Shown piece by piece: positions 46,493 through 64,000 of a stretch of DNA of 64,000 nt; within the stretch, counting starts at the first letter, position 1; every line of letters starts with the position of its first letter. This DNA comes from Burkholderiales bacterium RIFCSPHIGHO2_01_FULL_63_240. Lineage in GTDB: Bacteria; Pseudomonadota; Gammaproteobacteria; Burkholderiales; Burkholderiaceae_C. The translations under genes and the position numbers were made by a program. The notes beneath the pieces are model-generated. The model was not told where the DNA came from. It was given only the letters and a program-made list of their open reading frames with translations, and made no database searches. The stretch is taken from the NCBI GenBank assembly GCA_001770725.1, contig MERU01000009.1, positions 391,453 through 455,452 on the forward strand, in the 5' to 3' direction.

Positions 46493-46604
46493 GGACCTCC
46501 CGGGCTTTTGTCCCTCCGTGGAGCCGCCACCGCTGCTGCTGTCGCGACCGAGTGCTCTCGGACCAGTCTTCAGCCGGCATGGAGCCGGCCCGGAACCCTA
46601 GCGC
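46493..46604 (-). ncRNA. Guanidine-I (ykkC) riboswitch
   Basis: Read on the minus strand, the leader of the DUF1989-carboxylase operon contains the conserved ykkC blocks in order: CTAGGGTTCCG (ending the first stem), a GC hairpin (CCGGCTCCATGCCGG), CTGGTCCGAGAG, a variable P3 arm, and ACGGAGGGACAAAAGCCC followed by GGGAGG. These are the guanidine-binding core of the class I aptamer. The aptamer ends about 66 bases before the first start codon, leaving room for an expression platform. Induction by guanidine is expected from the known class. Confidence 0.93.
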
Positions 46605-46681
46605 TCATTCAGCCTGGATGCGGCGACCGCGGTCCGAGCTGCTCTCGCAAAGAGATCTGCAAGTTCGGTGCCAGGGTTGCG

Positions 46682-51379: not shown

Positions 51380-51413
51380 GGCCGCGATTCTGACACCTGG
51401 CAACCGCCTCGCA

Positions 51414-51842: not shown

Positions 51843-51944
51843 GGGGGCTCCTTGCTCGCGTGCCTGCACGCGAGGTGTGCAGATTGACTTTACATTGCTG
51901 GGCTGCACCGCTCCGGTTGTGCCTTCACTTTTCCCGGTCGCACC

Positions 51945-52370
51945 ATGAACTTCGATCCCGTTTTTGCCTTGTCCTGCAATGCGGCACTGCAGGTGCTGGT
52001 GTCCTCGCTCCTGGGGACGTTCATGCTGATCCCCTTGCAGCCCTGGGGCAAAAAGCTGGCTGCCCGGGTCAACATGAAATCGCTGCTGGCGACCCACATG
52101 GACTGGTACATGCTGGCCTTCATGCAATGGGGGGCGGCGTTCATGATGGACCGCTGGGACGCCGCACGGGACCCGGTGCTGGCCTTGCTGTTGATGTTTG
52201 GCGGCTGGACCAATGCCTTGCCCTACCTGCTCAGGGGCTTTGGCGTGAACGCTTTCGTGATGGGGGGCAACACCCTGCAGCGCGTGAGCGCGGGCATCGC
52301 TGGCTTGAGCGTGTTGGCCATCCTCGTGGCCTGGACGGCGATCATCTGGCGGATGATTGCGATCAGCTGA
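51945..52370 (+). CDS. Four-helix membrane protein, unknown function
   Basis: 141 residues with about four hydrophobic helices. A His-containing helix start (ATHMDWYMLAFMQWGAAFMM) is followed by LALLLMFGGWTNALPYLL and a final helix ending IIWRMIAIS. The arrangement is loosely like the hydroxylaminobenzene-mutase/styrene-oxide-isomerase group, but no active-site match can be claimed. Confidence 0.75.
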   Translation: MNFDPVFALSCNAALQVLVSSLLGTFMLIPLQPWGKKLAARVNMKSLLATHMDWYMLAFMQWGAAFMMDRWDAARDPVLALLLMFGGWTNALPYLLRGFGVNAFVMGGNTLQRVSAGIAGLSVLAILVAWTAIIWRMIAIS

Positions 52371-52381
52371 GGCGGGTGCCG

Positions 52382-52744
52382 TCAGGGCCTGGCCTGGCGA
52401 GAACCTGGCAGCCATTGCCGCAGTGCCTGCACCCATGGGTGGGTGTCGCGGGCGCCGAGTTCAAGCAGCCGAACCTCCAGTTGGCGCAGGCCACCTCGGC
52501 GCGCGGCTTCCAGCGGCGTCAGGTTGTCGAACTCTGAGCGCAGATTGGGATCCGCGCCATGGTCCAGCATGTAGAGGGCGACGGCTTCCTGCCCGGCCAG
52601 GATCGCGCCGACAAGCGGTGTCGAATAGAACTCGGGGTGGGCATGGTTGAGGCTCACGCCGGCCTCGACGTGGTACCTGACCAGGGCCAGGTCGCCCTCG
52701 CACGCTGCTTTGAAGAGGTCTTTCCAGTCTCCTGCAGACATCAC
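52382..52744 (-). CDS. Ankyrin-repeat protein
   Basis: 120 residues with about three ankyrin repeats: WKDLFKAACEGDLALVRYHVEAGVSLN, TPLVGAILAGQEAVALYMLDHGADPNL and TPLEAARRGGLRQLEVRLLELGA. No signal peptide. A partner-binding role is likely, partner unknown. It lies 15 bases downstream of the VOC gene, on the same strand. Confidence 0.88.
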   Translation of the reverse strand: MMSAGDWKDLFKAACEGDLALVRYHVEAGVSLNHAHPEFYSTPLVGAILAGQEAVALYMLDHGADPNLRSEFDNLTPLEAARRGGLRQLEVRLLELGARDTHPWVQALRQWLPGSRQARP

Positions 52745-52759
52745 GCTTCCTCTGTTTGG

Positions 52760-53245
52760 TCAGTCGATGTTCTGGCCGATGCGCCACAGCACGCCAGCGG
52801 GATCGAACAGGCAGAAGCCTTTCATCCGCCAGGGCTGCGTCTCGATCTCCGTGACCCTCACGCCGTGGCCGGCCTCGACACCACTGGCCTTGACGTGTTC
52901 CCACCATGCCTGCACGTCGTCCACGAGCAGGTGCATCATGAAGGATTCGGCCTGTCCCTCCGCGCAGAAGTCCTGCAGCAGGAAGCTGGCGTGCATGAAG
53001 TGGAAGCAGGCCACGCCATCGCCTTCGGAGGCCATCGTGAAGCCGAGGTCGCGGTAGAACTGTTTCGATCGCTCGAAGTCCCGCGCTGGCACGAAGGCCT
53101 TGATTTCAGTGACCTGTAGCTTGGACGCCAGTGCACCCCCGGTTTCGCCAGCCAACCCCCTGGTGTCGCGCTGCTTGAGTTGCGCCCAGGGCAGGCGCTC
53201 AGCAGTTACCCTTTTTGGCCTGGCCAGGTGGGCAGAACTTCCCAT
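52760..53245 (-). CDS. VOC family (glyoxalase/bleomycin resistance-like) protein
   Basis: About 130-161 residues. The core (VTEIKAFVPARDFERSKQFYRDLGF, VACFHFMHASFLLQDF, MHLLVDDVQAWWEHVKASGV, PWRMKGFCLFDPAGVLWRI) is one VOC unit. The ATG at 53245 would overlap the lipoprotein gene by 47 bases and adds about 40 atypical residues. A TTG start at 53155 is equally possible, as no ATG lies nearer. Enzymatic activity is not assignable. Confidence 0.82.
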   Translation of the reverse strand: MGSSAHLARPKRVTAERLPWAQLKQRDTRGLAGETGGALASKLQVTEIKAFVPARDFERSKQFYRDLGFTMASEGDGVACFHFMHASFLLQDFCAEGQAESFMMHLLVDDVQAWWEHVKASGVEAGHGVRVTEIETQPWRMKGFCLFDPAGVLWRIGQNID

Positions 53246-53357
53246 CGCCCGAATCGTGCCGTCCAGCAGGGTCGATCACGACCGATCCAGACGGGGTGTA
53301 AACGGCGCAGCCAGCGAAGGACGATGCAAGAACAAACAGCGCGATCATTTTTTTCAT
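53199..53357 (-). CDS. Small lipoprotein
   Basis: 52 residues: signal MKKMIALFVLASSFAGC with a lipobox (SFAGC), a short VYTPSGSVVIDPAGRHDSG linker and the C-terminal FCPPGQAKKGNC, a motif seen in many small uncharacterised proteobacterial lipoproteins. The frame extends further upstream, but the Lys-rich Met is the only sensible start. It flanks the left end of the cassette array. Confidence 0.75.
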   Translation of the reverse strand: MKKMIALFVLASSFAGCAVYTPSGSVVIDPAGRHDSGDGKFCPPGQAKKGNC

Positions 53358-53384
53358 GGTGACAGCCTTTGGTGGTGAGGTGGT

Positions 53385-53449
53385 GTCCAGTTTATGCCCG
53401 GTCAAGCCACTGCGCGAAGGCGCGGTGTTGCGTTGAGGCTGTGAACTCA
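53385..53449 (-). other. Possible degenerate attC at the old end of the array
   Basis: A segment with GTCAAGCC, a CGCGAAGGCGCG hairpin and TGCGTTGA follows the stop of the DHFR-like gene, spaced as in an attC. The R boxes are not recognisable. Weak call. Confidence 0.3.
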
Positions 53450-54019
53450 CGCGGCAGTGGCTGCAGGACCGTTGGGGACGATGTAGCGCATTTCGGCGAA
53501 CCCCGAGCCAATCTGCTTGACCGAGACAAGTCGAAGCGGAGGGCTTGTGAGACGACGAGGGAACAGGGGCTTGCCTCTTCCCAGCGTGACCGACCCAACC
53601 TGGACAATGATTTCATCCAGGAGCCCGGCATCGCAGAACTGCCCAGCCAGATCCCCTCCACCGACCACCCAGATGTTCTTGCCTCCCGCGGCCGCGCGCA
53701 TGGCCGAATGTGCAGGCCGAACGTCGCCTTGCACGAAGTGCAGGTTCGCGCCAGGAACCGGTGGAAGTGACCTGCTTGAAAACACCCAGGTTGGTTGGGT
53801 GTAAGGCCAGGTGGAGCCTGTCTGCGCTGCCACCGCCGCCGAGTGACGCAGCATCCATTCGTAGGTGGCCGAACCCATCGCCAACGCGCCGACCTCGGCG
53901 ATGAATGCCGGATAGCCGGTATCGTTGATGTCGCCGAGCGGAAACAGCCAATCGAGAGAGTCATCTTCGGTCGCGATGAAACCGTCGAGGCTGGTTGCCG
54001 TGTAGAACTGGGTCTTCAT
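53447..54019 (-). CDS. Dihydrofolate reductase family protein (RibD C-terminal-like)
   Basis: 190 residues. RibD_C fold: MKTQFYTATSLDGFIATEDDSLDWLF, LAMGSATYEWML, TWVFSSRSLPPVPG, IWVVGGGDLAGQFCDAGLLDEIIV and SVTLGRGKPLFP. Probably an NADPH-dependent reductase; not shown to confer trimethoprim resistance. The Met at 54019 lies just inside the cassette boundary; upstream frame is translated attC. Leftmost clear cassette gene. Confidence 0.88.
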   Translation of the reverse strand: MKTQFYTATSLDGFIATEDDSLDWLFPLGDINDTGYPAFIAEVGALAMGSATYEWMLRHSAAVAAQTGSTWPYTQPTWVFSSRSLPPVPGANLHFVQGDVRPAHSAMRAAAGGKNIWVVGGGDLAGQFCDAGLLDEIIVQVGSVTLGRGKPLFPRRLTSPPLRLVSVKQIGSGFAEMRYIVPNGPAATAA

Positions 54020-54045
54020 GGGGTTGAGAGATGTGTGGTCGGCCA

Positions 54046-54110
54046 GGCCAACCAGTTCAAGGCTTCGCCCCTGGCGTGGCCGAAGCGTGGATTGGCGCTT
54101 TGCCAACCAG
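54046..54110 (-). other. Degenerate attC
   Basis: Contains GTTCAAGGCTTCGCCCCTG and the shared core GGCGTGGCCGAAGCG, but the R boxes are eroded (GCCAAC lacking the T). The preceding ABM gene stops inside it. Confidence 0.6.
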
Positions 54111-54416
54111 GGGATGAGGGATGCCACCGTCGCCATAGGAGCCGATGACCTGAGCGATCACAACCTGATGGCCCCTGAGCCATTGAGATTGACGTTGTTT
54201 GGCCTGGAGGTGGGAAGGATGCCTCATGAGCGCCTGCAGCGCCTCCATTGATTCCCAGTAGTACACGTTCGAGATCAGGCCTGTTTCTTGGCTCTCCCAA
54301 GCCTCCTCACCGAGGTAGCCTGGAATGGACTTGGCAACTTGGGCGATGACGTTGTCCAGGGCGTAGAACTCGTCGTCGTACTGGCCCTTGGCGAAGGTGA
54401 ATGTAGAAGTGAACAT
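54057..54416 (-). CDS. Antibiotic biosynthesis monooxygenase (ABM) domain protein, cassette-encoded
   Basis: 119 residues. The ABM ferredoxin-like pattern is visible: FTFAKGQYDDEFYALDNVIAQVAKSIPGYLGEEAW, SNVYYWESMEALQALMRHPSHLQAKQR. The last ~16 residues (PLVGKAPIHASATPGAKP) are translated attC sequence, so the original stop was probably lost or lies in the recombination site. Function unknown. Confidence 0.82.
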   Translation of the reverse strand: MFTSTFTFAKGQYDDEFYALDNVIAQVAKSIPGYLGEEAWESQETGLISNVYYWESMEALQALMRHPSHLQAKQRQSQWLRGHQVVIAQVIGSYGDGGIPHPLVGKAPIHASATPGAKP

Positions 54417-54433
54417 GTGTTTGAGATGGGGGC

Positions 54434-54501
54434 GCCTGACGCGTGTGTGAAATGGTCATTGGACCGCTGGGCTATCGCCTTCGACATTCCCCAGTCAGGG
54501 C
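54434..54501 (-). other. attC recombination site
   Basis: Outer boxes GCCTGAC (54434-54440) and GTCAGGG (54494-54500) with inverted internal pairing. The SRPBCC reading frame ends with the TGA inside the right box. Confidence 0.7.
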
Positions 54502-55000
54502 GGCATCGTGGAGTTTTGGGCCTCGCAATAGCGCTTCAAACCGATCAGGCGCCTTCTCGTCGGCAAGGAAAAGCACTTCGCTGCGAGAAGATCCCCTGCC
54601 CAAGAAAGAAGAAGCGGGCGAGCCGATATCGAGTAGCGAAAGCGAGCAACCGTTGTGTGCCCATGGCGGTCTTCGAAGATCCAGGAGCCAGCGAACTTGG
54701 CAATGAACAAAGGCCCCTTGATCATTTTGATGGCGGCTCTGTTGGGATGAACGACCTGGACGAACTCAACGAGCATCTCCATGCCCAGCTTTGATCGCAC
54801 GAGAACTTGCGTCCCAACGGTGGGGGGCTCATGGAGCCGCGGACGACGGAGATTGACTCGGGGAACGGATCCCACTCATATCGAACGCTGTAGTCCTGTG
54901 AGATGTGGCCAACCAGCTCCGCTGGTGCGGAAATTTCGATGGAGTGCTCGACGGGCGTCGGGGCCGATCGATCACATTCGACAAAGGGCTCGGTTTGCAT
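54495..55000 (-). pseudogene. SRPBCC family protein, broken by a one-base frameshift
   Basis: Two overlapping minus-strand frames make one START-like protein. The N-terminal part ends its good sequence at VRYEWDPFPESISVVRGSMS; the next frame continues as TVGTQVLVRSKLGMEMLVEF through GPLFIAKFAGSWIFEDRHGHTTVARF. The switch is at a run of six G/C bases (54822-54827); seven or four would restore a fusion of about 168 residues. Either a real loss, a contingency tract, or a sequencing error. The stop lies in the attC box. Confidence 0.8.
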
Positions 55001-55054
55001 GATGCCTCATCGGGCAGGTTCTCAGCCCGTCATGTGCGGCTTCGGCAAGGGCGG

Positions 55055-55247
55055 TTGTCATTGCAAACAACGCCCGTGGCGCGCCAACCATGAAGCTGAA
55101 CAAGGCGAGTAAAAGACAGCGAAGAGGAATGGCCCCATGCCCTGGTCCTGATGTTTTGTGCTCTGGAGGCCAAGCTGTGCAGGGGATGGTGGTGGGGGCT
55201 GGTGGCTGAGCACTGCAGCGAGTGCTTGCTGAAAGAAAATGTCAGGC
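55055..55247 (-). other. attC with only one recognisable end
   Basis: The R'' box GCCTGAC (55241-55247, plus-strand GTCAGGC) contains the stop of the next gene. The other end is not clear; the segment to about 55055 has no gene and may be an eroded long attC. Confidence 0.45.
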
Positions 55248-55586
55248 TGAAGCTTCATGTGCAGCCTTTCTCCGCTCACGCCACAGGTATGCGGACTTCG
55301 CGAAGCAGGCGATGCAGATGCCATTGCTTGCGTACAGCACGAGATAGTGAACGGCTGATAAGTGGACAGATGCCGCAGCTGCCGCCGCTGTTGCGACTGG
55401 CACCAGTGGGAGTCCGATGGCGATGAGCAGCCAGTCAGCCGTGCGCAGCCACAAGCTCAAAGGGGCCTGTTGAAGGGAGTCGCCGTGCGCCATGTGTCCT
55501 GCGACAGTCAGGGTTGCCAAGATGGCAAACAATGCTGCGTGGACCAAGAAGCAGAGCAATGCGACTTTCCATGCGCGAGAAATCAT
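55242..55586 (-). CDS. Small membrane protein, cassette-encoded
   Basis: 114 residues with about three hydrophobic segments: VALLCFLVHAALFAILATLTVAG, WLLIAIGLPLVPVATAAAAAA and HYLVLYASNGICIACFA, ending in a basic tail (LWRERRKAAHEASA). No family recognised. The stop codon lies in the attC box GCCTGAC, which supports a genuine cassette gene. Confidence 0.78.
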   Translation of the reverse strand: MISRAWKVALLCFLVHAALFAILATLTVAGHMAHGDSLQQAPLSLWLRTADWLLIAIGLPLVPVATAAAAAASVHLSAVHYLVLYASNGICIACFAKSAYLWRERRKAAHEASA

Positions 55587-55619
55587 GAGAACGATGCCTG
55601 GTTGGTTGTGCGATGTTGC

Positions 55620-55686
55620 GCCTGACGCTCAAGTTCACCGGTGGCCGCGCGAAGCGCTGGCATCTTTGTTCAACGACCAGTCAGGC
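55620..55686 (-). other. attC recombination site (67 bp)
   Basis: GCCTGAC at 55620-55626 and GTCAGGC at 55680-55686, with AAGTTCACC and CAACGACCA as the inner arms. The membrane-protein gene to the right ends inside it. Confidence 0.85.
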
Positions 55687-56070
55687 CTGAGGGGTGGATA
55701 CACCGATGCCTCGCCACAACCACCCACCCATGAGAGCTCCTGTGAGTGTGCAGAAAAAGCCATGCACCAGCACTGCGACATAGATCATTGACGCGCCACC
55801 GCCTTGATACGGACGAATGCAATCGGTGTAGTACGCGAACAGAAGCCACGGGGCGAAGAAAAGCGACGCCGTGATTGCACGCAGTGGATTCTTCGTCAAG
55901 AGCGCCATCAGCGCTGGGGCCATGGGAATGGCAATGAAGGTCAGTGCGTCCAGGTAGCCGATGAGATCGTGACCATAACAGGCAAAGCTGTTGAATGCCT
56001 GGAGAAGGGCCACCCCAACAATGGAGGTGAAGCCAAAGGCGCGGGCGCGCCCTACCGGGATGATGACCAT
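55681..56070 (-). CDS. Membrane protein, cassette-encoded
   Basis: Up to 129 residues with four hydrophobic stretches (SIVGVALLQAFNSFACYG, ALTFIAIPMAPALMALL, ITASLFFAPWLLFAYY, VAVLVHGFFCTLTGALMGGW). No known family. The ATG at 56070 lies inside the upstream attC; if that site is correctly placed, translation may start further in, at a GTG/TTG near VGVALL. The stop is in the attC box. Confidence 0.72.
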   Translation of the reverse strand: MVIIPVGRARAFGFTSIVGVALLQAFNSFACYGHDLIGYLDALTFIAIPMAPALMALLTKNPLRAITASLFFAPWLLFAYYTDCIRPYQGGGASMIYVAVLVHGFFCTLTGALMGGWLWRGIGVSTPQA

Positions 56071-56106
56071 TGCAATGTTGGCGTTCGCTTGATCGCCCCG
56101 TCAGGT
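56050..56106 (-). other. Short attC recombination site (57 bp)
   Basis: GTCAGGT at 56100-56106 and GCCCTAC at 56050-56056, with the typical TTGGCGTTCGCTTGATCGCCC inner arm shared with other sites here. The left box is degenerate. Confidence 0.6.
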
Positions 56107-56119
56107 GCTGGCGAATGGC

Positions 56120-56530
56120 TCAGGGACTGCACCATTGGTCCTCGCAGGGAATCCCGTCGTTGTCGCCGTCCATTTTCACGCCTGGGCAGTTGCTCAGGAA
56201 GAACTTGGCTTCCGCGCACGAGTTCATTTGTGAGCAATGCTTGCGACCGTCGCAGCGGTAGCCATTGGTGGCGAATGGAGGTGTCGCAGCTCCCTCTCTG
56301 GTTGCCGCAGGCATCGCGGGTGCAGCGTTGGCGGGGGCTGTGCGGCGCTTCTTTTCCGAGGCGTTGAGTTCTTCGAGCGTTGGATCTTTCCGAGCTTGCG
56401 TCGAAGGGCAGGGTGCTTGTTGATAGGAGACGCTGCCATTGATGACGCACTTGTTCATCGTGGCGGCATGAGCACCTGTGGCAATCACGATGGTCGCCAG
56501 CAGGTGAAGTCGCAGCGAGAGTGTTCGCAT
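56120..56530 (-). CDS. Secreted excalibur-domain protein, cassette-encoded
   Basis: 136 residues. Signal peptide (about 1-22, ending GAHA), then a DUF4124-like start (NKCVINGSVSYQQAPCP), a Lys/Arg/Ala linker and a C-terminal excalibur domain: CDGRKHCSQMNSCAEA, FFLSNCPGVKMDGDNDGIP, CEDQWC. The DxDxDG loop is expected to bind calcium. Excalibur domains occur on extracellular nucleases and surface proteins; no catalytic domain is attached here. Confidence 0.87.
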   Translation of the reverse strand: MRTLSLRLHLLATIVIATGAHAATMNKCVINGSVSYQQAPCPSTQARKDPTLEELNASEKKRRTAPANAAPAMPAATREGAATPPFATNGYRCDGRKHCSQMNSCAEAKFFLSNCPGVKMDGDNDGIPCEDQWCSP

Positions 56531-56539
56531 GATGTGTGC

Positions 56540-56623
56540 GCCTGACGCCCGATTTCAGGGGCTCGCGCTTGGCGTGGCCAAGCGTGCTGTGGTGGAGGCG
56601 TCCCCTGCATTGCCCAGTCAGGC
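56540..56623 (-). other. attC recombination site (84 bp)
   Basis: GCCTGAC (56540-56546) and GTCAGGC (56617-56623), with the shared GGCGTGGCCAAGCGTGC core and GGCGTCCCCTGC arm. Confidence 0.92.
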
Positions 56624-56663
56624 TGGCACGCGTCAACACTGGGGGCGCCCATCGTGGGGAAAA

Positions 56664-57194
56664 TCAGATGCCAGACTGATTCTTCAGGGGGTTCCGATGC
56701 CCTCTCAGTAGGAATCCAGCGATGCCAAGCCCGAACATGAAAAGGGAGCTTGCTTCAGGAACTGAAGAAACCTGCGGCGCGATTTGAACAATGTACAAGC
56801 CGTCAGGCTTGTAGATGCCTAATCCAATTCTTGAAAAATCGGTGCTGCCTGATATTTGTCGAAACACCAGTGAGCCATTCAAGTCCAAGAATATCTTGTG
56901 CTCGGAAGAGGAGCTCCAGGTGCTGTTGGGTGAGGCATTGAACTTCCAAGTGGAGCGCAAGCTGGTGAAGTCTTGATTTTCGAAGAAATCGATTTCCACA
57001 GGGCCTTTCTCTCCCTCTCCCGTTTTGAAGAAGAGGTAGTAGCCGGGCATGTACCCTAGGTCAGTTCTGTCGCGGGTGGCATCGTTGGCTTCGAAGGTGA
57101 ATTGATATTCGTTGTCGGGCGTGATGACGAACGCTGCAGCTGTCAGGGAGGCGAGGCCGGTGGCCAGCGCAGCAATCAAGCGATTAAACTTCAT
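56664..57194 (-). CDS. PEP-CTERM protein, cassette-encoded
   Basis: 176 residues. Signal peptide (FNRLIAALATGLASLTAAA), a beta-rich body (EYQFTFEANDATRDRT, GYMPGYYLFFKTGEGEKG, KIFLDLNGSLVFRQ) and a C-terminal exosortase signal: VPEASSLFMFGLGIAGFLL followed by RGHRNP. The motif is VPEAS rather than PEPs. GC is lower than in flanking genes. Sorting would need a chromosomal exosortase. Confidence 0.85.
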   Translation of the reverse strand: MKFNRLIAALATGLASLTAAAFVITPDNEYQFTFEANDATRDRTDLGYMPGYYLFFKTGEGEKGPVEIDFFENQDFTSLRSTWKFNASPNSTWSSSSEHKIFLDLNGSLVFRQISGSTDFSRIGLGIYKPDGLYIVQIAPQVSSVPEASSLFMFGLGIAGFLLRGHRNPLKNQSGI

Positions 57195-57257
57195 GCGATA
57201 AACTCTCTTTTGTCTTTTCAGTCTTGGGATTTCTGGTCGTATTATTTTTATAAATTC

Positions 57258-57303
57258 TGTCTGGTGTCAAGCATGGGCGCCCGTGTGCAGCGACCAGTCA
57301 GGC
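57258..57303 (-). other. Short or eroded attC
   Basis: GTCAGGC at 57297-57303 with the GTGTGCAGCGACCA arm shared with the sites at 55620 and 59111. The left box is unclear (about 57258). The cupin gene stop is in the right box. Confidence 0.6.
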
Positions 57304-57660
57304 GCGTGGTGCAAGGAGAACATAGCCTGCTTCGATCGGGGCGACCACGGAAATAAACCGCAATGGTTCGTGGCTCGTGCATCTGACGCCATGCACTTCG
57401 CCTTTTTTTGCTACGACGACATCGCCAGGCGCGACCTTGACGGAGTTGCCGTGTTCGTCGATTTGATATTCGCCATGGCCCGAGAGGATCGTCCATGTAT
57501 CTTGGCCTTGCGGATGCGTATGGGGAGCAATGGCTTGACACGGTTCGACATGCCAGGCTACGACGACTGAATGTTCTGATTCTTCTACCACTGAACGAAT
57601 CGGCTCTCCCTCGCTTACTTGCATGTGGTCACTTGATTTGAATACGCGCTGACTGCTCAT
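57298..57660 (-). CDS. Cupin domain protein, cassette-encoded
   Basis: 120-residue single cupin. Metal motif 1 is IAPHTHPQGQDTWTILSGHG, with the usual G(X)5HXH spacing relaxed; motif 2 is PGDVVVAKKGEVHGV. It could bind a divalent metal and act as a dioxygenase, isomerase or sensor. The stop TGA lies in the attC box. Confidence 0.86.
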   Translation of the reverse strand: MSSQRVFKSSDHMQVSEGEPIRSVVEESEHSVVVAWHVEPCQAIAPHTHPQGQDTWTILSGHGEYQIDEHGNSVKVAPGDVVVAKKGEVHGVRCTSHEPLRFISVVAPIEAGYVLLAPRA

Positions 57661-57715
57661 GGCTGCTCCGAGAGTTGCAGTGCGAAGTACGCAAGAACCA
57701 CGCCGAGCACTTGGC

Positions 57716-57833
57716 GCCTAGCGCTCAAGGTAAGCGGCGCCGGAGCACCGAAGGTGCGCAGGGGAGCAACACAGGCCAGTGGCACGGCGAGGGCATGACC
57801 TGTGTTGGCGTCCGCTTGACCACACAGTTAGGC
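57716..57833 (-). other. attC recombination site (118 bp)
   Basis: GCCTAGC (57716-57722) and GTTAGGC (57827-57833), inner arms AAGCGGCGCCGGAG and TTGGCGTCCGCTTGA. The upstream PEP-CTERM gene ends in the TAA of the right box. Confidence 0.88.
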
Positions 57834-58427
57834 GCGCTTGCGACGGTGCAAGGAAATCAATGAGGCAACACCCATTGACATCAGCACGCACGTCGATGGC
57901 TCCGGGATTGCCGTAATGGTTGCAACGGCGAGCCTAGGCATCTCATCCGTGCTTGTGTACGGGAAGTCGAGGTGGCTCGTGAAGTTAGAGCCAAAGGTGT
58001 GGATTGGTTTATCCGACACGATGCCGAACAAGTCGCTGCTGGTAACGACCCGATCGCCGACTCGCCAGTATTTTAAGGATGATGCAGTGCCCTGCCATTT
58101 GACGATATTGGTCGTCTCGGTCAATTCAATGGTGCGAAGGTTGTCAAAAAAATAAGCCTGCCAAGAAACGTAGGCGGGAGTGTCAATGTTTGCAAGGTTG
58201 GCGTTGACCCCAATTTTCCCTTTGAACGGTGCTTCGGCCGTTGATTGCAATGTGGTTGTGTATGCGCCAGTTATGTTATCAAAGATAACAGAGATGCTTA
58301 GCAAGTCTGCGCCAGTCTGTCTGGTCTGATCATTCGTTCCATCGATAAATGAAAACGTAAGAATTTCTGCGCCAACATTGCTCGTGAGGCAAGTTGCGAG
58401 TGCGGCTCCAATCAGAATTCGACGCAT
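57828..58427 (-). CDS. PEP-CTERM protein, cassette-encoded
   Basis: 199 residues. Signal peptide (ILIGAALATCLTSNVGA), then a beta-rich body with TFSFIDGTNDQTRQTGADLLSIS and a C-terminal signal IPEPSTCVLMSMGVASL followed by HRRKRA, the canonical PEP-helix-basic arrangement. AT-richer than the chromosomal flank. It is the second exosortase substrate carried by the array and ends exactly in an attC box. Confidence 0.87.
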   Translation of the reverse strand: MRRILIGAALATCLTSNVGAEILTFSFIDGTNDQTRQTGADLLSISVIFDNITGAYTTTLQSTAEAPFKGKIGVNANLANIDTPAYVSWQAYFFDNLRTIELTETTNIVKWQGTASSLKYWRVGDRVVTSSDLFGIVSDKPIHTFGSNFTSHLDFPYTSTDEMPRLAVATITAIPEPSTCVLMSMGVASLISLHRRKRA

Positions 58428-58512
58428 TGGGTTCTCCCTGAGTTTAATGGTTCAACCGTGAATGCAAGGGGCGCGTGGATGTCGCGCGCCCCTCTCTTGA
58501 GGGGCATTAGCT

Positions 58513-58625
58513 ACCTGATTAATCGGCGCCGGAGCACAAAGTGCGGAGTGCACCACGGCAGGCCATGAAAATGCCGAAGGCATGGCATGGCCGACGTGGC
58601 GTCCGAGTTGAACGCACCGTTAGGC
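58513..58625 (-). other. attC recombination site (about 113 bp, left box degenerate)
   Basis: GTTAGGC at 58619-58625, AATCGGCGCCGGAG and GTGGCGTCCGAGTTGAACG arms. The left box reads ACCTGAT (58513-58519). Confidence 0.72.
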
Positions 58626-58680
58626 TGGGGCCGACTGGTTGCGGTATTCGTGAGCGGCAGTGGTTTTTTGAATTGAGTAT

Positions 58681-59097
58681 TCATGTGCGAAGTGCGGCCT
58701 GAAGAACCATGAACCAAAGGCCGAGGGTGGCAAGAAAGTTGGCGGTGAAGACGAGTCCGCGAAGCCGCACGTTTTTCGTGAGGATTTGAACGAAGCTGTG
58801 TGCCAGCCTGCCGATCATGAAGACCCAGCACAGAATGATGGCTGCAGAGTTGATCGCCTGGAGTTGGATGAGCAACAGGCAAGCCGCATAGAAGAGAACA
58901 GGCCATTCAAACTGATTGGAGAGATTTGCGCTGATGCGCGGTTCAAGAGACGCCCACGGATTTGAGCCATCGGCGCGCTGGCCAATGCCCCAAATATTTG
59001 GTGCGCGAGCAATGGTGAGCAGTGCATACAGCATTGCTGCCAACGCAACATGCGCGGCCATGAATGGAATCAGAGAATGGGCCATGTGTACCTGCAT
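58681..59097 (-). CDS. MAPEG family membrane protein, cassette-encoded
   Basis: 138 residues, four hydrophobic helices. MAPEG pattern: ARAPNIWGIGQR, the RISANLSNQFEWPVLFYAACLLL helix and WVFMIGRLAHSFVQI. Members are glutathione-dependent transferases or eicosanoid enzymes in eukaryotes; bacterial roles are mostly unknown. An alternative Met five residues in (MAHSLIP) is possible. Confidence 0.87.
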   Translation of the reverse strand: MQVHMAHSLIPFMAAHVALAAMLYALLTIARAPNIWGIGQRADGSNPWASLEPRISANLSNQFEWPVLFYAACLLLIQLQAINSAAIILCWVFMIGRLAHSFVQILTKNVRLRGLVFTANFLATLGLWFMVLQAALRT

Positions 59098-59110
59098 GTT
59101 TGTGGGAGCG

Positions 59111-59179
59111 GCTTTACGCCCAAGTTCTTACCGGCGGCCATGCGAGGCATGGACGTCCGTGTGCAACGACCAGTCAGGC
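59111..59179 (-). other. attC recombination site (69 bp)
   Basis: GCTTTAC (59111-59117) and GTCAGGC (59173-59179), arms GCCCAAGTTCTTACCGG and CCGTGTGCAACGACCA. Confidence 0.8.
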
Positions 59180-59205
59180 CTGGCCAGGAGATGCAGCCGC
59201 AGTGG

Positions 59206-59691
59206 CTATTGCTTCTTGGTTTCACGAAGCACTCGCTCAATGAAAGTCGATTTTGCCGCGCGGTACTCGGTCGCGGAGAGGTGCGCGGCATTCAACTTGA
59301 CTTGGTTGTACTCGTCGACGAGAGCAGGGCAGGTCAGCAGCGCGTCTCGGAAGGTGATGAACATCTCGAAAGGCGAACCATGCGCTACCAGTTGAACGGC
59401 ATGCTCTTCGTTCGGCTTGTGCCATTCGAGCATGCAGAGTTGTTCATTGCGCAACGTATCAAGCTTCTCGGTGTAGCCCCAATCTGTCAGGGTGCGGACT
59501 GACGGTTGATGGTCTGATTTGGCAACCAATACACAGATGTCAAGATCCCCTTTTGACACAGCCCCTGGTATGGCAGAGGAGCCGACGTGTTCGACCACTG
59601 CATGGGGCAAAAGTCGATGTATCTGAGTGCGCGCCAGAACAAACCGTGAAGTGATGGCGGCTTGATAGTCGAGTGGCTGCAGTAAGCGCAT
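59206..59691 (-). CDS. GrpB/UPF0157 family nucleotidyltransferase-fold protein, cassette-encoded
   Basis: 161 residues. The GrpB signature VVEHVGSSAIPGAVSKGDLDICV carries the Gly-Ser and Asp-x-Asp of the polymerase-beta fold. ALVDEYNQVK, LSATEYRAAKSTFIERVL close the domain. GrpB proteins are linked to CoA or nucleotide chemistry and are frequent integron cargo. The ATG lies two bases from the upstream attC. Confidence 0.88.
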   Translation of the reverse strand: MRLLQPLDYQAAITSRFVLARTQIHRLLPHAVVEHVGSSAIPGAVSKGDLDICVLVAKSDHQPSVRTLTDWGYTEKLDTLRNEQLCMLEWHKPNEEHAVQLVAHGSPFEMFITFRDALLTCPALVDEYNQVKLNAAHLSATEYRAAKSTFIERVLRETKKQ

Positions 59692-59692
59692 G

Positions 59693-59777
59693 GCCTAACG
59701 CCCAAGTTCAGGGGCGCGAGCTTGGCGTGGCCGAGGCGATGCGACGTATAGGCGTCCCCTGCAACGCCCAGTTAGGC
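59693..59777 (-). other. attC recombination site (85 bp)
   Basis: GCCTAAC (59693-59699) and GTTAGGC (59771-59777), with the shared GGCGTGGCCGA core and GGCGTCCCCTGCAACGCCCA arm. Confidence 0.93.
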
Positions 59778-60058
59778 CGGTGTAAGTAGCGGGGCGCTTG
59801 CGCGGCCAGCGAGCTCGCACACGAGGCGCCAGCCTGGTGTGCGCGATGAGCTGCTGCGGCAGCTTCCGAGATGAACCGTGCCATCACGCCTCCCTTTGCG
59901 CATGGCGTCAGCCATGCGCTGACGAAGACCTCAATCTAACGCACCTACAACTCGAGCGGCAGAGGTGCCAGCCCATCAACTTGGTGGCAAGAACGAATGT
60001 GCGACTGCCGCCGAGGAGGCGGCTCGTGCGCCCTGTGCAAGCGGCGTGTTCCGCGAGG
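59778..60058. other. Orphan cassette without a clear gene, copy 1
   Basis: A 281-bp cassette body bounded by attC sites and repeated at 62229-62509 with about 85-90 % identity by eye. Three hairpins are kept in both copies: AGCTGC/GCAGCT, GCATGGC/GCCATGC and GCCGCC/GGCGGC. The best minus-strand frame (47 codons, ending in the attC TAA) has an in-frame stop in copy 2, so protein coding is doubtful. It may be a structured RNA or a relic. Confidence 0.75.
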
Positions 60059-60157
60059 GCCTAACGCCCAGGTTAACCGACTCCGGAGGCCCGAGAGGGC
60101 CGCAGGGCGCCAACACTGGCCATGGCCAGTGTTGGCGCCCGCGTTGAACCGTCGGCT
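60059..60157 (-). other. attC recombination site, right box degenerate
   Basis: GCCTAAC (60059-60065), a CAACACTGGCCATGGCCAGTGTTG internal palindrome, and a degenerate right box GTCGGCT (60151-60157). A second GTTAGGC at 60252-60258 lies inside the next gene's end, so the true site may extend to 60258. Confidence 0.75.
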
Positions 60158-60241
60158 GGGGAGCGTAGGCAAGACTGGGTCAATTCACTCCAGCTGTGTC
60201 GGGCATGATTGTCCACAAAAATCGAGCAAGTGCGCCACAGA

Positions 60242-60619
60242 TTAAAAGGCAGTTAGGCGATTTGCTTTGCCATAAACAGTGATGTTGAAGTTTTCGGCGT
60301 ATCCGCCGCCGCCTTCTGTTGGCTTTCCCCCCTGAGCAACTTCCATTAATTGTACGTTTACCTTCTTTCCGTCCTTGGCTTGAGCAGAAAGAACGCCAAC
60401 TTGCTGACCAGGCACCGTGAATTGTGTTTTCTTGGTTGCTATGCCTTGTTCAGCAGCTTTACCCGAAAGTATGAACATGTATTTTACAGGTGCATCTGGG
60501 CTTGCGTCCACGATAACAATCGTCGCACGGTCATTTGGATCTGGCTCCTTGAGTTCACTTAGCGCAGCAACTGACGATGCGCCCAATACAAAAGAGAGGA
60601 TGTACGCCCGAAATTTCAT
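60242..60619 (-). CDS. Secreted hypothetical protein, cassette-encoded
   Basis: 125 residues. Signal peptide (FRAYILSFVLGASSVAALS), a polar body with NDRATIVIVDASPDAPVKYMFI and a Gly-rich stretch (GGKPTEGGGGYAENF). Unknown family. AT-rich relative to the chromosome. Its last codons (NRLTAF) overlap a GCCTAAC box. Confidence 0.72.
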   Translation of the reverse strand: MKFRAYILSFVLGASSVAALSELKEPDPNDRATIVIVDASPDAPVKYMFILSGKAAEQGIATKKTQFTVPGQQVGVLSAQAKDGKKVNVQLMEVAQGGKPTEGGGGYAENFNITVYGKANRLTAF

Positions 60620-60644
60620 CTTTTCCTCAGTTGTTTTGTGTGAG

Positions 60645-60728
60645 GCCTAAATCCCAAGCTCAGGGGCGCTCGCTTGGCGTAGCCGAAGCGCGCGCTGATG
60701 GAGGCGTCCCCTGCACGCCCAGTTAGGC
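60645..60728 (-). other. attC recombination site (84 bp)
   Basis: GCCTAAA (60645-60651) and GTTAGGC (60722-60728), with the shared GGCGTAGCCGAAGCG core. Confidence 0.9.
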
Positions 60729-60780
60729 CGGGGAAAGGAGCGAGGTTTATTAATGGTTTTGGATTTTGGGGGCATGAGAT

Positions 60781-61278
60781 TTACGCTTGCCTACGCTTCT
60801 GGCGTCCCAGCGCCCAAGCTGCAATTACAAGAATGGCGCCTGCTGCTGCAGCCTCGATGATGGCCCCTTGAACCAACGCTGACCATGCAGCGCCTGCGCA
60901 ATGCAGGAAGTTTGGCAGCTCAAGCATCTCGCCTGGCTGTGCGCCACAGACAGACCGAATTTGACTAGTGAGGTTTGGCCTGAACGTAGGTGGAAGTAGG
61001 CGAAGACCTTGAGTTGCAGCTAGTGCTGCGATGGTGGGGATGAGCCAATGCCATTGAACGGAAAAGCGCTTGCTCGCGAAAATGTAGGTGAGGCCGAGCC
61101 AGGGGAGAAGAAGCAGTAGAACCGGGGCGCCGAGCAACGACGCGGCAACAGCAAAATCGGAGGCAGGCGAAAGCCACAGCAAGAGAAACACCAGGGCTAG
61201 AAATGCAGCTGCTAGAGCCGCTGTTATGCAGCAATAGAAAACGAAGGCCTGAAGTAGCAAGCGAGGTAAGTCTTTCAC
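60781..61278 (-). CDS. Membrane protein, cassette-encoded
   Basis: 165 residues from a GTG start (VKDLPRLLLQ), placed just after the upstream attC; the longer ATG frame would begin inside that attC. Four hydrophobic helices: LLLQAFVFYCCITAALAAAF, VAASLLGAPVLLLLLPWLGL, HWLIPTIAALAATQGL and IIEAAAAGAILVIAAWAL. Basic tail GRQKRRQA. Unknown function. Confidence 0.7.
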   Translation of the reverse strand: MKDLPRLLLQAFVFYCCITAALAAAFLALVFLLLWLSPASDFAVAASLLGAPVLLLLLPWLGLTYIFASKRFSVQWHWLIPTIAALAATQGLRLLPPTFRPNLTSQIRSVCGAQPGEMLELPNFLHCAGAAWSALVQGAIIEAAAAGAILVIAAWALGRQKRRQA

Positions 61279-61292
61279 TTGTGTATCCGGGA

Positions 61293-61392
61293 GCCTGATG
61301 CCCAGGTTAAACGGCGCCGGAGCCCGTAAGGGCTGAGGGCACCAACACTGGCCACGGCCAGTGTTGGCGTCCGCTTGAGCGCCGAGTTGGGC
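61293..61392 (-). other. attC recombination site (100 bp)
   Basis: GCCTGAT (61293-61299) and GTTGGGC (61386-61392) around a CAACACTGGCCACGGCCAGTG palindrome, a close relative of the site at 60059. Confidence 0.83.
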
Positions 61393-61544
61393 CACCGTGC
61401 CTGCGCGAAGCGCCGGTGCCAGTACTCGATGATGGCGTTACCACTGCCAGAGCGATGGCGTGCGCCAATGGGCGGACGGCGGTACATGACGAGTCGATCT
61501 TCCGTTTGGGTGGGAGGTTCCCGGGTGGGCAAGAGTTTGGTCAG
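61393..61544. other. Gene-free remnant between a cassette gene and its attC
   Basis: About 150 bases holding no convincing gene. A minus-strand frame (MYRRPPIGARHRSGSGNAII) reads through the attC and is not supported. GTCAGGC at 61560-61566 suggests a former attC box, so this may be a degraded small cassette. Confidence 0.45.
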
Positions 61545-62021
61545 CTAGCTGTCGGAACTGTCAGGCTGGGGCGTAGATTTTAATTGCCTGGATTCATTGA
61601 AAATGATATACCCAAAAAATACTGGAATACTGGAGAGCCATAGGAATGATGACCAAATCCATTCTCGCTTAATGGCTTGATTGCTTTTTCTGTACAGGAC
61701 TTGTCCGCTCGCCGCCGTTGCTTCGGTAATGGTCTTGATTTTTCCGAAAGCCGTTGGCGTCATTACATACTTTATGGAAATGGTGCTGCCAACGGTATTG
61801 CGGAGGTCTAGGCTATCACAGTTGCCAAAAAAGTCGCTTGACGCGCAAACAAATTCACCGTTGACTAGTGAGTCTGGTGTAAACCTGCCCCATTCCTTCA
61901 TGGTGTAGATGCCGCTGAAGCTTTTTACGTCTTCCAGTGTCGCTGAATTGGGGTGTTTTATAAAGATCGCAATGGCGCCTATGGCGGTAAGGATAAATAA
62001 GGTTGCCCAATACTTCGCCAT
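61545..62021 (-). CDS. Two-helix membrane protein, cassette-encoded
   Basis: 158 residues. N-terminal membrane segment (YWATLFILTAIGAIAIFI), an extracytoplasmic domain of about 95 residues with two Cys (VCASSDFFGNCDSLDLR) that could form a disulfide, and a second helix (WIWSSFLWLSSIPVFFGYIIF). Low GC. No family recognised. Confidence 0.78.
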   Translation of the reverse strand: MAKYWATLFILTAIGAIAIFIKHPNSATLEDVKSFSGIYTMKEWGRFTPDSLVNGEFVCASSDFFGNCDSLDLRNTVGSTISIKYVMTPTAFGKIKTITEATAASGQVLYRKSNQAIKREWIWSSFLWLSSIPVFFGYIIFNESRQLKSTPQPDSSDS

Positions 62022-62195
62022 GATTTTTTGGGGATTAAGGTGTCTTGTGTTGGTTTATATGTGTTGGTGGTTTCGCTTGGTGTGCAACAGCTTTACTGTA
62101 TCGCCATCAAAAAATTGCAGTTCGTCTGTATGCGCTTTGACTCGCGCATAACACACATTATTCGGCTTATTGTTGCACCAATGTGTCTTCTTTGT
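62022..62195. other. AT-rich leader segment with no recognised feature
   Basis: Lies between the 158-residue membrane protein gene and the mini-attC. No gene is evident; the low GC and T-runs could hold that cassette's own promoter. Confidence 0.4.
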
Positions 62196-62228
62196 GCCTG
62201 ACCTGAGTGGCCTAACGCCCAGTTAGGC
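62196..62228 (-). other. Collapsed mini-attC
   Basis: GCCTAAC (62210-62216), five bases, GTTAGGC (62222-62228): the two outer boxes are joined and the central hairpin arms are missing. Another box, GCCTGAC, is at 62196-62202. Looks like a deletion within an 85-bp attC. Confidence 0.8.
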
Positions 62229-62509
62229 CGGTGCAAGTAGCAGGGCCTTTGCGCGGCCAGCGAGCCCGCACACGAGGCGTCAGCCTGGTGTGCGCGATGA
62301 GCTGCAGCGGCAGCTTCTGAGATGAACATTGCCATCACGCCTCCCTTTGCGTATGGCGTCAGCCATGCGCTGACGAAGACCTCAATCTAACGCACCTGCA
62401 GCCTGTGATGCAGCGGCGCCAGCACACCAACTTCTGGGCATGAACGAATGTGCGACTGCCGCCGAGGAGGCGGCTCGTGTGGCCTTGGCAAGCGGCGTGT
62501 TCCGCGAGG
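62229..62509. other. Orphan cassette without a clear gene, copy 2
   Basis: Second copy of the 59778-60058 body. The same three hairpins are present, with compensating or loop changes (AGCTGC-AGCG-GCAGCT). The 47-codon frame of copy 1 has a TGG-to-TGA change. Upstream attC is normal, downstream attC is the collapsed one. Confidence 0.75.
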
Positions 62510-62594
62510 GCCTAACGCCCAAGTTCAGGGGCGCCCGCTTGGCGTTGCCGAAGCGTGCGCTGGTGGAGGTGTCCCCTGCAACGCCCAGTTAGGC
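62510..62594 (-). other. attC recombination site (85 bp)
   Basis: GCCTAAC (62510-62516) and GTTAGGC (62588-62594); core GGCGTTGCCGAAGCGTGCGC. The acetyltransferase gene ends in its TAA. Confidence 0.95.
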
Positions 62595-63098
62595 GACGCG
62601 GCCTTGCCCAATGAGATGTTTTGCGTAGATGCCATATGGGACACCGTGGATTGATGGTGCTTCACGAACGAACTCAAACCCCATGGATCGGTACATCGGA
62701 AGCGCCACAGACATGATGGCGCTAGTGTGGAGGCCGAACACGTCGGCTCCGTCACGCTGAGCCTTTGCAATGCAAGCGTTGGCAAGTGCGCGGCCAATGC
62801 CTTTACCGCGTGATTCTGGGCAAACAACGAGCATTCGCATGACAGCCCATGTGCTTGGGAAAAACGAGCTTTTGGGAGCCTGGGGACCAAGGTACGCAAC
62901 TGCCCCCACGACTGTCTCGCCAGATGCCGCAACGATGATCTCGCCCGCTTCCGCCAGCGAAGACATGCATGCGATTTTTGCCCTGAAGCCTGGCCAGTCT
63001 TCGTATTGGCTAGCGAACTGCTCAAAAGCGGCAACACCAAGTGCATTGACGGCGCCAATGTCAGTTGGTTGAAAATCGCGCAGACCTGTCGAGTACAT
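62589..63098 (-). CDS. GNAT family N-acetyltransferase, cassette-encoded
   Basis: 169 residues. Acetyl-CoA motif A is visible as MLVVCPESRGKGIGRALANA (R-G-x-G-x-G/A), followed by GADVFGLHTS and MYRSMGFEFVRE. The substrate may be an amine, amino acid or antibiotic and is not predictable. The Met at MYSTGL was chosen because the upstream frame is attC. The stop TAA is part of the attC R'' box, the textbook cassette organisation. Confidence 0.92.
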   Translation of the reverse strand: MYSTGLRDFQPTDIGAVNALGVAAFEQFASQYEDWPGFRAKIACMSSLAEAGEIIVAASGETVVGAVAYLGPQAPKSSFFPSTWAVMRMLVVCPESRGKGIGRALANACIAKAQRDGADVFGLHTSAIMSVALPMYRSMGFEFVREAPSIHGVPYGIYAKHLIGQGRVA

Positions 63099-63103
63099 GA
63101 GTT

Positions 63104-63188
63104 GCCTAACGCCCAAGTTCAGGGGCGCCCGCTTGGCTTTGCCGAAGCGTGCGCTGGTGGAGGCGTCCCCTGCAACGCCCAGTTAGGC
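63104..63188 (-). other. attC recombination site (85 bp)
   Basis: GCCTAAC (63104-63110) and GTTAGGC (63182-63188), differing from the 62510 site at only a few positions. Confidence 0.95.
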
Positions 63189-63254
63189 GCTGGTGGAAGA
63201 TGACGGGATGCTGAACATGAGGTATAGCTGTGCGCATGAGTGCGGGCGACGAGG

Positions 63255-63497
63255 TTATTGCTCTGACTCCTCTCGCTTGGTTACAAGCGGCACAAGAAAA
63301 AACAAACTGATAGCTACATATAGCAGACCAATGATGGACCGCAAGGAGCCGGTTCCGAGTAACGCGCTGAGAGCCTTGTACGTACCGCATTGCTTGGAGC
63401 ACAGCGTGAGCGGGTCAACGTCAGACGTGAGTATCGACACGCCATACGCCAGCAAGATGCTGCCAATGATGGCTGCGCCGACCTTGAGGATTCGCAT
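63255..63497 (-). CDS. Two-helix small membrane protein, cassette-encoded
   Basis: 80 residues from MRILKVG. Two hydrophobic helices (VGAAIIGSILLAYGVSILT and IIGLLYVAISLFFLVPLV) flank a short loop with two Cys (TLCSKQCGTYKAL). Unknown family. The longer upstream frame reads through the attC. The stop lies 66 bases before the downstream attC. Confidence 0.75.
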   Translation of the reverse strand: MRILKVGAAIIGSILLAYGVSILTSDVDPLTLCSKQCGTYKALSALLGTGSLRSIIGLLYVAISLFFLVPLVTKREESEQ

Positions 63498-63506
63498 GCT
63501 GGAGAT

Positions 63507-63600
63507 GCCTAACGCCCGCGGTAAGCCGCGCCGGAGTGCGAAGCACGGAGGGCACCCGCAAGCGCAGCTTGTGGGCGTCGGCTTGACCAAAATGTTAGGC
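63507..63600 (-). other. attC recombination site (94 bp)
   Basis: GCCTAAC (63507-63513) and GTTAGGC (63594-63600), arms GTAAGCCGCGCCGGAG and GTGGGCGTCGGCTTGACC; a different attC subfamily from its neighbours. Confidence 0.92.
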
Positions 63601-63630
63601 TGGTGGCAAATGCTGATGCCGGGCGTAATT

Positions 63631-63846
63631 TCATTTGGCTTTGACTTCAAGGGCTGATGCGATACGTTCAAGGTTTAGATTCAATCGCTTCGTTTCTGCG
63701 ATGTGGTCAGTCAAGTAGGATCGGACCTCATCCATGTAGTCCGATTGTTTTTGCTGTGTACCACGCCAGCGCCGCATGAAGAAAGCCCAAACGCCGATTA
63801 ACAGGAGCATTGGGCCCCAACTGAAAAAGAACTCTTGAAGCATCAT
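63631..63846 (-). CDS. Small membrane protein with FtsH-like transmembrane segment, cassette-encoded
   Basis: About 70 residues from the double Met. One transmembrane helix, FFFSWGPMLLLIGVWAFFMRR, which closely resembles the second transmembrane helix of FtsH (SWFPMLLLIGVWIFFMRQM from memory). A charged coiled-coil-like tail follows (SDYMDEVRSYLTDHIAETKR, LNLNLERIASALEVKAK). No AAA or protease domain. It could be a free-standing partner or inhibitor of a membrane protein; function unknown. Confidence 0.78.
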   Translation of the reverse strand: MMLQEFFFSWGPMLLLIGVWAFFMRRWRGTQQKQSDYMDEVRSYLTDHIAETKRLNLNLERIASALEVKAK

Positions 63847-63916
63847 GGGTTTTCCGTTTGAAAATGGATTAGGGCATGCCTGACTGCTTTGCATGCCTGA
63901 CTGCTTTTTAAGAGAG

Positions 63917-64000
63917 GCCTAACGCCCAAGTTCAGGGGCGCACGCTTGGCGTGGCCGAAGCGATCGAACGTATTGGCGTCCCCTGCAACGCCCAGTTAGG
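63917..64000 (-). other. attC recombination site, cut by window end
   Basis: GCCTAAC (63917-63923) and GTTAGG at 63995-64000, with the last base beyond the window. Shows that the array continues to the right. Confidence 0.93.

Follow-up and report, generated by a model that had tools for sequence, protein, structure and literature searches.

How the genes of an integron, a bacterial gene-collecting platform, are expressed when they lie far from the integron promoter is not settled in general, and the question is raised anew by one end of a 64,000-nucleotide stretch of the Burkholderiales bacterium RIFCSPHIGHO2_01_FULL_63_240 genome (hereafter the window, with positions counted from its first letter). 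A tandem series of minus-strand genes is found here, parted by GCCTAAC...GTTAGGC or GCCTGAC...GTCAGGC palindromes, just as a preliminary description of the same DNA had pointed out when it proposed a previously unlabelled chromosomal integron array of about 19 cassettes. We conclude with very high confidence that the region is an array of cassettes bounded by attC sites, and that it likely belongs to a single chromosomal integron as its distal portion, with the integrase gene (intI), attI, and the first nine cassettes on another contig of the assembly, C11. As an integron it is of a type already described; what is new is a repeated gene-less cassette, which is predicted as likely to help express neighboring genes. 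Its conserved translation start and a reading frame that runs through attC give a testable answer to the question of expression, one that differs from the promoter cassettes of Vibrio; if it is true, some integron cassettes carry a portable ribosome start instead of a gene. That the array had gone unlabelled is plausible, as full-text literature searches turned up nothing published about chromosomal integrons in Aquabacterium or about the gene-less cassette.

attC sites delimit the array

The array spans 55,620 to 64,000, where the window ends on the right, with its genes on the minus strand and attC sites between them (Table 1). Strict palindrome scoring missed most of these sites, and the criterion was relaxed to a scan for core plus L box, which in its strict form recovered 6 sites on the gene strand of 53385-64000, compared to 2 per strand in the other 53,384 bases; the same scan applied to 100 first-order Markov resamplings of the array gave a mean of 0.11 sites and a maximum of 3. 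RF01860, guessed to be the Rfam family for attC, was rejected as belonging to a different family, and in its place we built our own covariance model of the recombining strand, trained on 17 attC sites from the same genome. This took the place of the HattCI/IntegronFinder search that had been suggested as a check, and it identified 14 attC sites with E values of ≤0.001 in 50001-64000, 7 of them training members and 7 outside the training set.

The sites show the R''-L''-L'-R' anatomy of attC together with a bottom-strand hairpin, and they fall into size classes of 67 to 69, 84 to 85, and 94 to 122 nt, plus one 19-bp remnant. Single-strand DNA folds of four sampled sites had the R boxes paired in all four bottom strands. 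Several 84- to 85-bp units had been described as near-identical: in ungapped comparison to the 85-bp palindrome copy at 59692, those at 62509, 63103, and 63916 are 84, 82, and 92% identical and the one at 60644 is 69% identical, and the copies at 62510 and 63104 are 98% identical to one another. Because the model was built on this genome, the scores of all training members are high by construction, and one of the four folded bottom strands (L043:14863) has a branched best fold with a z-score of -1.6; both observations count against the integron reading. Ordinary interspersed repeats would also be palindromic and repeated, as these sites are, yet repeats that are not recombination sites would leave their R and L box anatomy, several size classes, and placement at gene boundaries unexplained, and the same genome has a complete integron integrase and an attI-like site heading such an array, with related arrays beside intI in relatives. 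We regard this alternative as extremely improbable.

Two boundaries are attC half-sites, at 57259-57303 (7.6 bits; E value of 3.0) and 56025-56106 (6.3 bits; E value of 6.4), and the covariance model found no significant attC in 53385-55620. The array had been drawn from 53385 to 64000; this extent stands for 55,620 to 64,000, and the left end was over-long by the first 2.2 kb (53,385 to 55,620). The frames at 53447-55586 are assigned to the array by their position, because a single attC-like match (54434-54501; 6.6 bits; E value of 5.3) is present there, and they are possibly decayed distal cassettes. Similarly, the count of about 19 cassettes fits the gene or gene-less units that can be drawn, although only 14 attC sites are statistically supported. 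The half-sites of the distal part, together with a gene split over two frames (54495-55000), loosely suggest that distal cassettes are older and decaying; against such a trend, attC scores fall unevenly along the array, with weak sites at 62210 and 60059 among strong ones and a site of 78 bits at 56540. The two overlapping minus-strand frames at 54495-55000 resemble one SRPBCC-type gene with a frameshift; searched separately in Pfam, one had no match and the other had a weak match below the cut-off.

An integrase on a second contig

The right edge of the window is the last base of contig C9 and lies inside an attC site; therefore, no integrase can follow in this assembly. An intI gene to the right of the window, as predicted in the preliminary description, could thus not be found on C9, but the genome's integron integrase is present on C11 with a fitting array, and with the attC array and an attI-like site this supports the reading as a chromosomal integron. 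The C11 gene encodes an IntI of 343 amino acids (aa) without stops that scores 461.6 bits against TIGR02249 (cut-off of 265), is the sole match in the genome over that cut-off, and lies 5.2 kb from the end of C11. The protein aligns with the solved structure 2A3V over residues 31 to 343 (300.8 bits), an alignment that covers the catalytic and IntI-specific regions, given the residues that we take to be catalytic or IntI specific. It belongs to the same integron integrase family as IntI1 of class 1 integrons, with a score of 377.9 bits against NF011946, which presumably represents the IntI1 type, below the cut-off of 435 for that model. On C11, intI is divergent from nine attC-bounded cassettes, and a candidate attI-like site is located between the two (L043 14233-14400). 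IntI is presumably active on these sites, in which case it would excise and insert cassettes at the C11 integron.

The C11 array runs off the end of its contig in an orientation that fits the window array, whose cassettes require an upstream part beyond the end of C9. The two arrays share attC types, and the gene-less cassette is common to both. A whole-genome scan with the attC model, in which 150 of 6131 first-look candidates were scored, identified 23 attC sites at E values of ≤0.1 (17 training members and 6 others), all at the C9 end, the C11 end, or the C7 start, with none elsewhere among the scored candidates. By the evidence of the model, an array runs off a contig end at C9 and C11 alone; comparison of the 26 contig ends with one another, together with the genome scan, revealed no further array off any contig end, and therefore one integron across one gap is likely. 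This is the simplest reading of the sequences, and it must be weighed against the fact that we infer the join rather than observe it. Alternatively, the window array could be a CALIN, an integrase-free cluster of attC sites that stands apart from the C11 integron. It does lie on a different contig from the C11 array, and a second array at the start of C7 has an attI-like site and no integrase in the sequence examined; the fitting orientations, the shared attC types and gene-less cassette, and the restriction of running-off arrays to C9 and C11 nevertheless make a CALIN very unlikely.

The attI-like sites at the C7 start (L044:1-235) and the C10 end (L065:1128-1247) are both located away from an integrase and end in CTATTTGTAGTTAG; two cassettes come after the one on C7, and the sequence examined shows no integrase beside either site. 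The ends of C2, C4, C7, C8, C10, and C12 share a repeat of ∼100 to 190 bp, which is probably interspersed in the genome and caused the assembly to break there.

Like the sedentary chromosomal integrons of the Vibrio and Xanthomonas type, this integron has intI, attI, and a one-way array of similar attC sites on the chromosome, with many genes of unknown function. It differs in belonging to the Aquabacterium group, in being split by assembly, in its several attC size classes, and in being smaller as far as seen, with 14 supported attC sites in the window and 9 on C11. Integron integrases are common among relatives: at E values of ≤1e-60, 33 of the 42 genus genomes searched have an IntI match, and 32 of these are over the cut-off; the genus includes Aquabacterium commune and Aquabacterium parvum. 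Among named genomes, the nearest integrases are those of Comamonadaceae bacterium 2PF and A. parvum B6 (83%) and A. commune DSM 11901 (76%). The GST gene adjoining intI is also found beside intI in four genomes of the genus (G309, G405, G420, and G413) at 91 to 96% identity. A shared chromosomal location is weakened as an argument by the presence of this flank in just 4 of 29 IntI loci of other genomes (L161 to L189), most of which span ∼1.5 kb past intI.

In A. parvum (G405), attI-like sites also occur within arrays, at L225 ∼1500-1555 (contig C312 of that genome), L227 ∼1360-1555 (C80), and L213 ∼1917 (C66), and each directly precedes a cassette with a gene-less head. The C80 unit is flanked by GTTAGGC, the arrangement expected had a circle carrying attI integrated into an attC site.

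A repeated gene-less cassette

Going beyond what had been described for this array, two of the window cassettes are copies of one gene-less cassette, of which a third copy is present on C11 (L043 17535-17901); the bodies are 82 to 89% identical. In the C11 copy the attC toward the preceding gene has been lost, and the cassette and that gene therefore form one 711-bp unit. A covariance model of the 145-nt core of the cassette recovered 33 matches in 8 of the 42 genus genomes (31 with >100 bits, one with 52, and one with 34); a single genome has as many as 8 strong copies. A. commune has five tandem copies as the first cassettes beside intI, and another genus genome (G033) has two beside an incomplete intI match. 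The array pieces examined comprise 123 complete cassettes; 28 of these have the core, and a second gene-less family is recognizable by its head motif in a further 10. This count is biased, because most of the pieces were included for carrying the first family. When the first 41 codons of the frame described below were used as a protein query, 65 predicted proteins were recovered that begin in this way, one of them from the window itself.

Outside the genus, a DNA search of 399 genomes of the family, with 2 candidates scored per genome, gave 7 short matches (28 to 59 bases) in other genera, and the core model, which scored 7 candidates in each genome, yielded 2 hits, both borderline (22.6 and 23.5 bits). 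No match was found in 72,556 plasmid records, and none was found in viral contigs with one exact 25-base pattern.

The match of 52 bits is a degenerate relic of the core at L207:1501-1636 on the minus strand (G420:C2), in a locus with no attC hit. The second gene-less family, of ∼265 bp, occurs at L190 114-378, 3134-3396, 4144-4407, and 5282-5546 and in L193, L228, L229, L230, L233, and L237; it shares the 5' head and hairpin with the first family, with a middle stem pair of A-T instead of the G-C of the first.

The core was aligned as 29 distinct rows, two divergent ones being dropped to leave 27 for motif and identity figures. Pairwise identity among the 27 is 98% in the first hairpin, 94% in the second, and 92% in the third, compared to 68% in a variable 31-nt stretch. 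The loop of the second hairpin holds most of a GGGAGG motif (present in 25 of 27 rows), and its 3' arm holds a start codon, ATG in 26 rows and GTG in 1. The frame that begins there was analyzed in 31 of the 33 core matches. It crosses the cassette's own attC in 27 copies (58 to 63 codons): 22 have 58 codons ending in TGA, measured in 20 of them at 8 nt before R', and 5 stop in R'. Of the rest, three have frames of 80, 104, and 48 codons, the first being the window copy whose attC is lost, and one row is cut by the end of the locus; none of the 30 copies with a stop end at the TAA of R''. In window copy 1, the frame starts with the ATG at 59884 and has 58 codons.

A portable translation leader or a promoter?

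We tentatively favor a mechanism in which the gene-less cassette is a portable translation leader. Ribosomes would enter at the GGGAGG and start codon of the core and, in translating, would melt the attC hairpin of the cassette; with the stop 8 nt before R', they would then restart on the gene of the next cassette. A precedent is ORF-11 of class 1 integrons, where, according to PMC8876359, translation through attC opens the hairpin and feeds the next gene by termination-reinitiation. The positions of the frame and start fit this published scheme without proving it. With ORF-11 of attI1, as described there, the cassette shares a short throw-away frame, a good ribosome site, and a stop just before the cassette start; here the leader is within a cassette, and the coupling is predicted from sequence. 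Features of ORF-11 found in the gene-less cassette include a Shine-Dalgarno site, a start codon, and a short frame ending near the next gene. Because the leader frame sits in a cassette, it would be movable to any array position, and a bolder form of the proposal, which we hold only as a possibility, is that of a movable ORF-11: wherever IntI drops the cassette, an attC hairpin is opened and a gene without a Shine-Dalgarno motif behind it is switched on.

The genes behind the cassette are placed as a leader would have them: 12 of 16 such coding cassettes start ≤20 nt from R', and 14 of the 16 are without a Shine-Dalgarno motif (with starts taken from a simple script, and counting neither frames of <50 codons nor cassettes of the gene-less kind). 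Several points tell against the leader nonetheless. The motif is missing before the assigned start in 70 of all 84 coding cassettes, and there is no clear depletion behind the gene-less cassette, where it occurs in 2 of 16, compared to 12 of 57 elsewhere (and 0 of 11 with an unknown predecessor). Two of the three frames are open across attC anyway and the copies are related, so that retention of the frame is weak evidence. Finally, the ratios of nonsynonymous to synonymous polymorphism (pN/pS) of the frame, 0.89 in 15 copies and 0.73 in 29 rows, show little protein-level constraint but leave room for a weak one.

It is nearly as likely, though still doubtful, that the cassette is a promoter cassette as in Vibrio, giving transcription rather than translation downstream. 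PMC11014356 reports sense promoter activity in most of the gene-less cassettes tested from four Vibrio chromosomal integrons, and a TAGATT or TAAATT motif lies upstream of the core in 28 of our 29 distinct rows. The conserved blocks are G+C rich, however, and the C11 gene-less cassette has no sigma-70-type match, with 1 in the whole stretch where 2.4 would be expected; such a consensus scan is a weak test, because a heading in the same source states that these promoters cannot be identified in silico. Like the Vibrio cassettes as that source describes them, the gene-less cassette has no open reading frame over 70 aa (58 to 63 codons in 27 of 31 copies) and is spread along a chromosomal array; unlike them, it is one related family with a near-invariant core, a Shine-Dalgarno site and start, and a frame through attC.

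We consider it less likely than a promoter, and improbable overall, that the cassette is a small structured RNA like the sRNA-Xcc1 cassette of Xanthomonas. The consensus hairpins pair in 97.4% of cells, compared to 25 to 47% when slid; the middle pair of the 5' hairpin is G-C in 12, A-T in 11, and T-C in 1 of 24 pattern-matching cassette heads; and only 11 of 500 shuffles attain the covariation score (0.074 versus 0.068). When tested as evidence for an RNA core, covariation nevertheless proved weak: a double change is seen in just 1 core pair out of 35, which 488 of 500 shuffles reach or pass. The fold of the window copy is unremarkable in energy, with a z-score of -1.5 matched by 19 of 200 shuffles. 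Rfam, which we presume holds the sRNA-Xcc1 family, gave no match up to an E value of 5 in 59700-60070. The symE/sRNA-Xcc1 element, as described in PMC12444791, is likewise a widespread cassette with a possible RNA product; the cassette described here has no symE-like gene that we recognized and no Rfam match, and is in sense orientation.

A real 58-aa protein is the least probable of these functions and in our view quite unlikely. Of the 65 predicted proteins with this start, 56 are 58 aa long, and pN/pS is lowest in frame 0 (0.73, compared to 1.11 and 1.24 in the other frames); but the metagenome proteins are gene-finder calls, the 15 copies with a pN/pS of 0.89 show no codon-position bias, the 31-nt stretch of the core with 68% identity lies behind the start codon, and the final third of the protein is attC sequence.

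Cassette cargo

Of the 19 window frames compared to Pfam, 7 are clearly over the cut-off (RibD_C, Excalibur, PEP-CTERM, cupin, MAPEG, GrpB, and GNAT), ABM is exactly at it, and the remaining 11 are below it or without a match. Relatives elsewhere were found for two window cassettes among the genus loci compared, the GrpB gene, which has its ATG 1 nt past the preceding attC, and the 165-aa protein. PADLOC identified no defense family in 10 cassette proteins (6 from the window and 4 from C11), and Rfam and tRNA searches returned nothing relevant to the array.

Table 1. Features of the cassette array in the window, listed from its attI-proximal end
Feature	Position	Strand	Evidence
attC, truncated by contig end; attI-proximal end of window array	63917..64000	-	hit 63918-64000, 86.9 bits, E 3e-19, outside training set
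Cassette gene, 87 aa	63631..63894	-	no Pfam match
attC, 94 nt	63507..63600	-	60.9 bits, training member
Cassette gene, 80 aa	63255..63497	-	no Pfam match
attC, 85 nt	63104..63188	-	102.2 bits, training member; bottom-strand DNA fold a single long hairpin, R boxes paired
GNAT acetyltransferase cassette gene, 168 aa	62589..63095	-	PF00583, 2.4e-12
attC, 85 nt	62510..62594	-	99.8 bits, training member
Gene-less cassette, copy 2 (conserved core 62253-62397 within body 62229-62509)	62210..62509	-	attC shrunk to 19 bp (62210-62228), 22.4 bits
Cassette gene, 158 aa	61545..62021	-	no Pfam match
attC, 100 nt	61293..61392	-	47.3 bits, outside training set
Hydrophobic cassette gene, 165 aa	60781..61278	-	relative at 81% identity in other genus genome (L201)
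attC, 84 nt	60645..60728	-	80.4 bits, training member
Cassette gene, 125 aa	60242..60619	-	no Pfam match
attC, R'' end degenerate	60059..60161	-	22.3 bits, E 9e-4, outside training set
Gene-less cassette, copy 1 (body 59778-60058; core 59802-59946)	59693..60058	-	attC 59693-59777, 96.7 bits, training member
GrpB family cassette gene, 161 aa	59206..59691	-	PF04229, 2.9e-22; relative at 83% identity in G413 locus (L167)
attC, 69 nt	59111..59179	-	42.5 bits, outside training set
MAPEG family cassette gene, 138 aa	58681..59097	-	PF01124, 1.9e-17
attC, 122 nt	58504..58625	-	26.9 bits, E 7e-5, outside training set
Possible PEP-CTERM cassette gene, 199 aa	57828..58427	-	PF07589, 18.4 bits, under cut-off of 20.7
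attC, 118 nt	57716..57833	-	70.3 bits, outside training set
Cupin cassette gene, 120 aa	57298..57660	-	PF07883, 4.4e-15; then attC half-site 57259-57303
PEP-CTERM cassette gene, 176 aa	56664..57194	-	PF07589, 25.3 bits, cut-off 20.7
attC, 84 nt	56540..56623	-	78.0 bits, training member
Excalibur domain cassette gene, 136 aa	56120..56530	-	PF05901, 1e-11; then attC half-site 56025-56106
Cassette gene, 129 aa	55681..56070	-	no Pfam match
attC, 67 nt; last significant, distal limit of supported array	55620..55686	-	55.5 bits, training member
Distal frame, 114 aa	55242-55586	-	position
Distal frame, ABM	54057-54416	-	Pfam exactly at cut-off
Distal frame, RibD_C	53447-54136	-	Pfam over cut-off

Two of the window cassettes code for PEP-CTERM-type proteins (56664-57194 and 57828-58427, the second below the Pfam cut-off), which are unusual cargo for integron cassettes. 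Within an A. parvum array, a gene pair in reverse orientation (L225:769-1313, minus strand) resembles what we take to be a toxin-antitoxin pair of the ParDE/RelBE type. Outside the array, the minus strand of the window carries a Guanidine-I riboswitch at 46495-46612 (74.9 bits).

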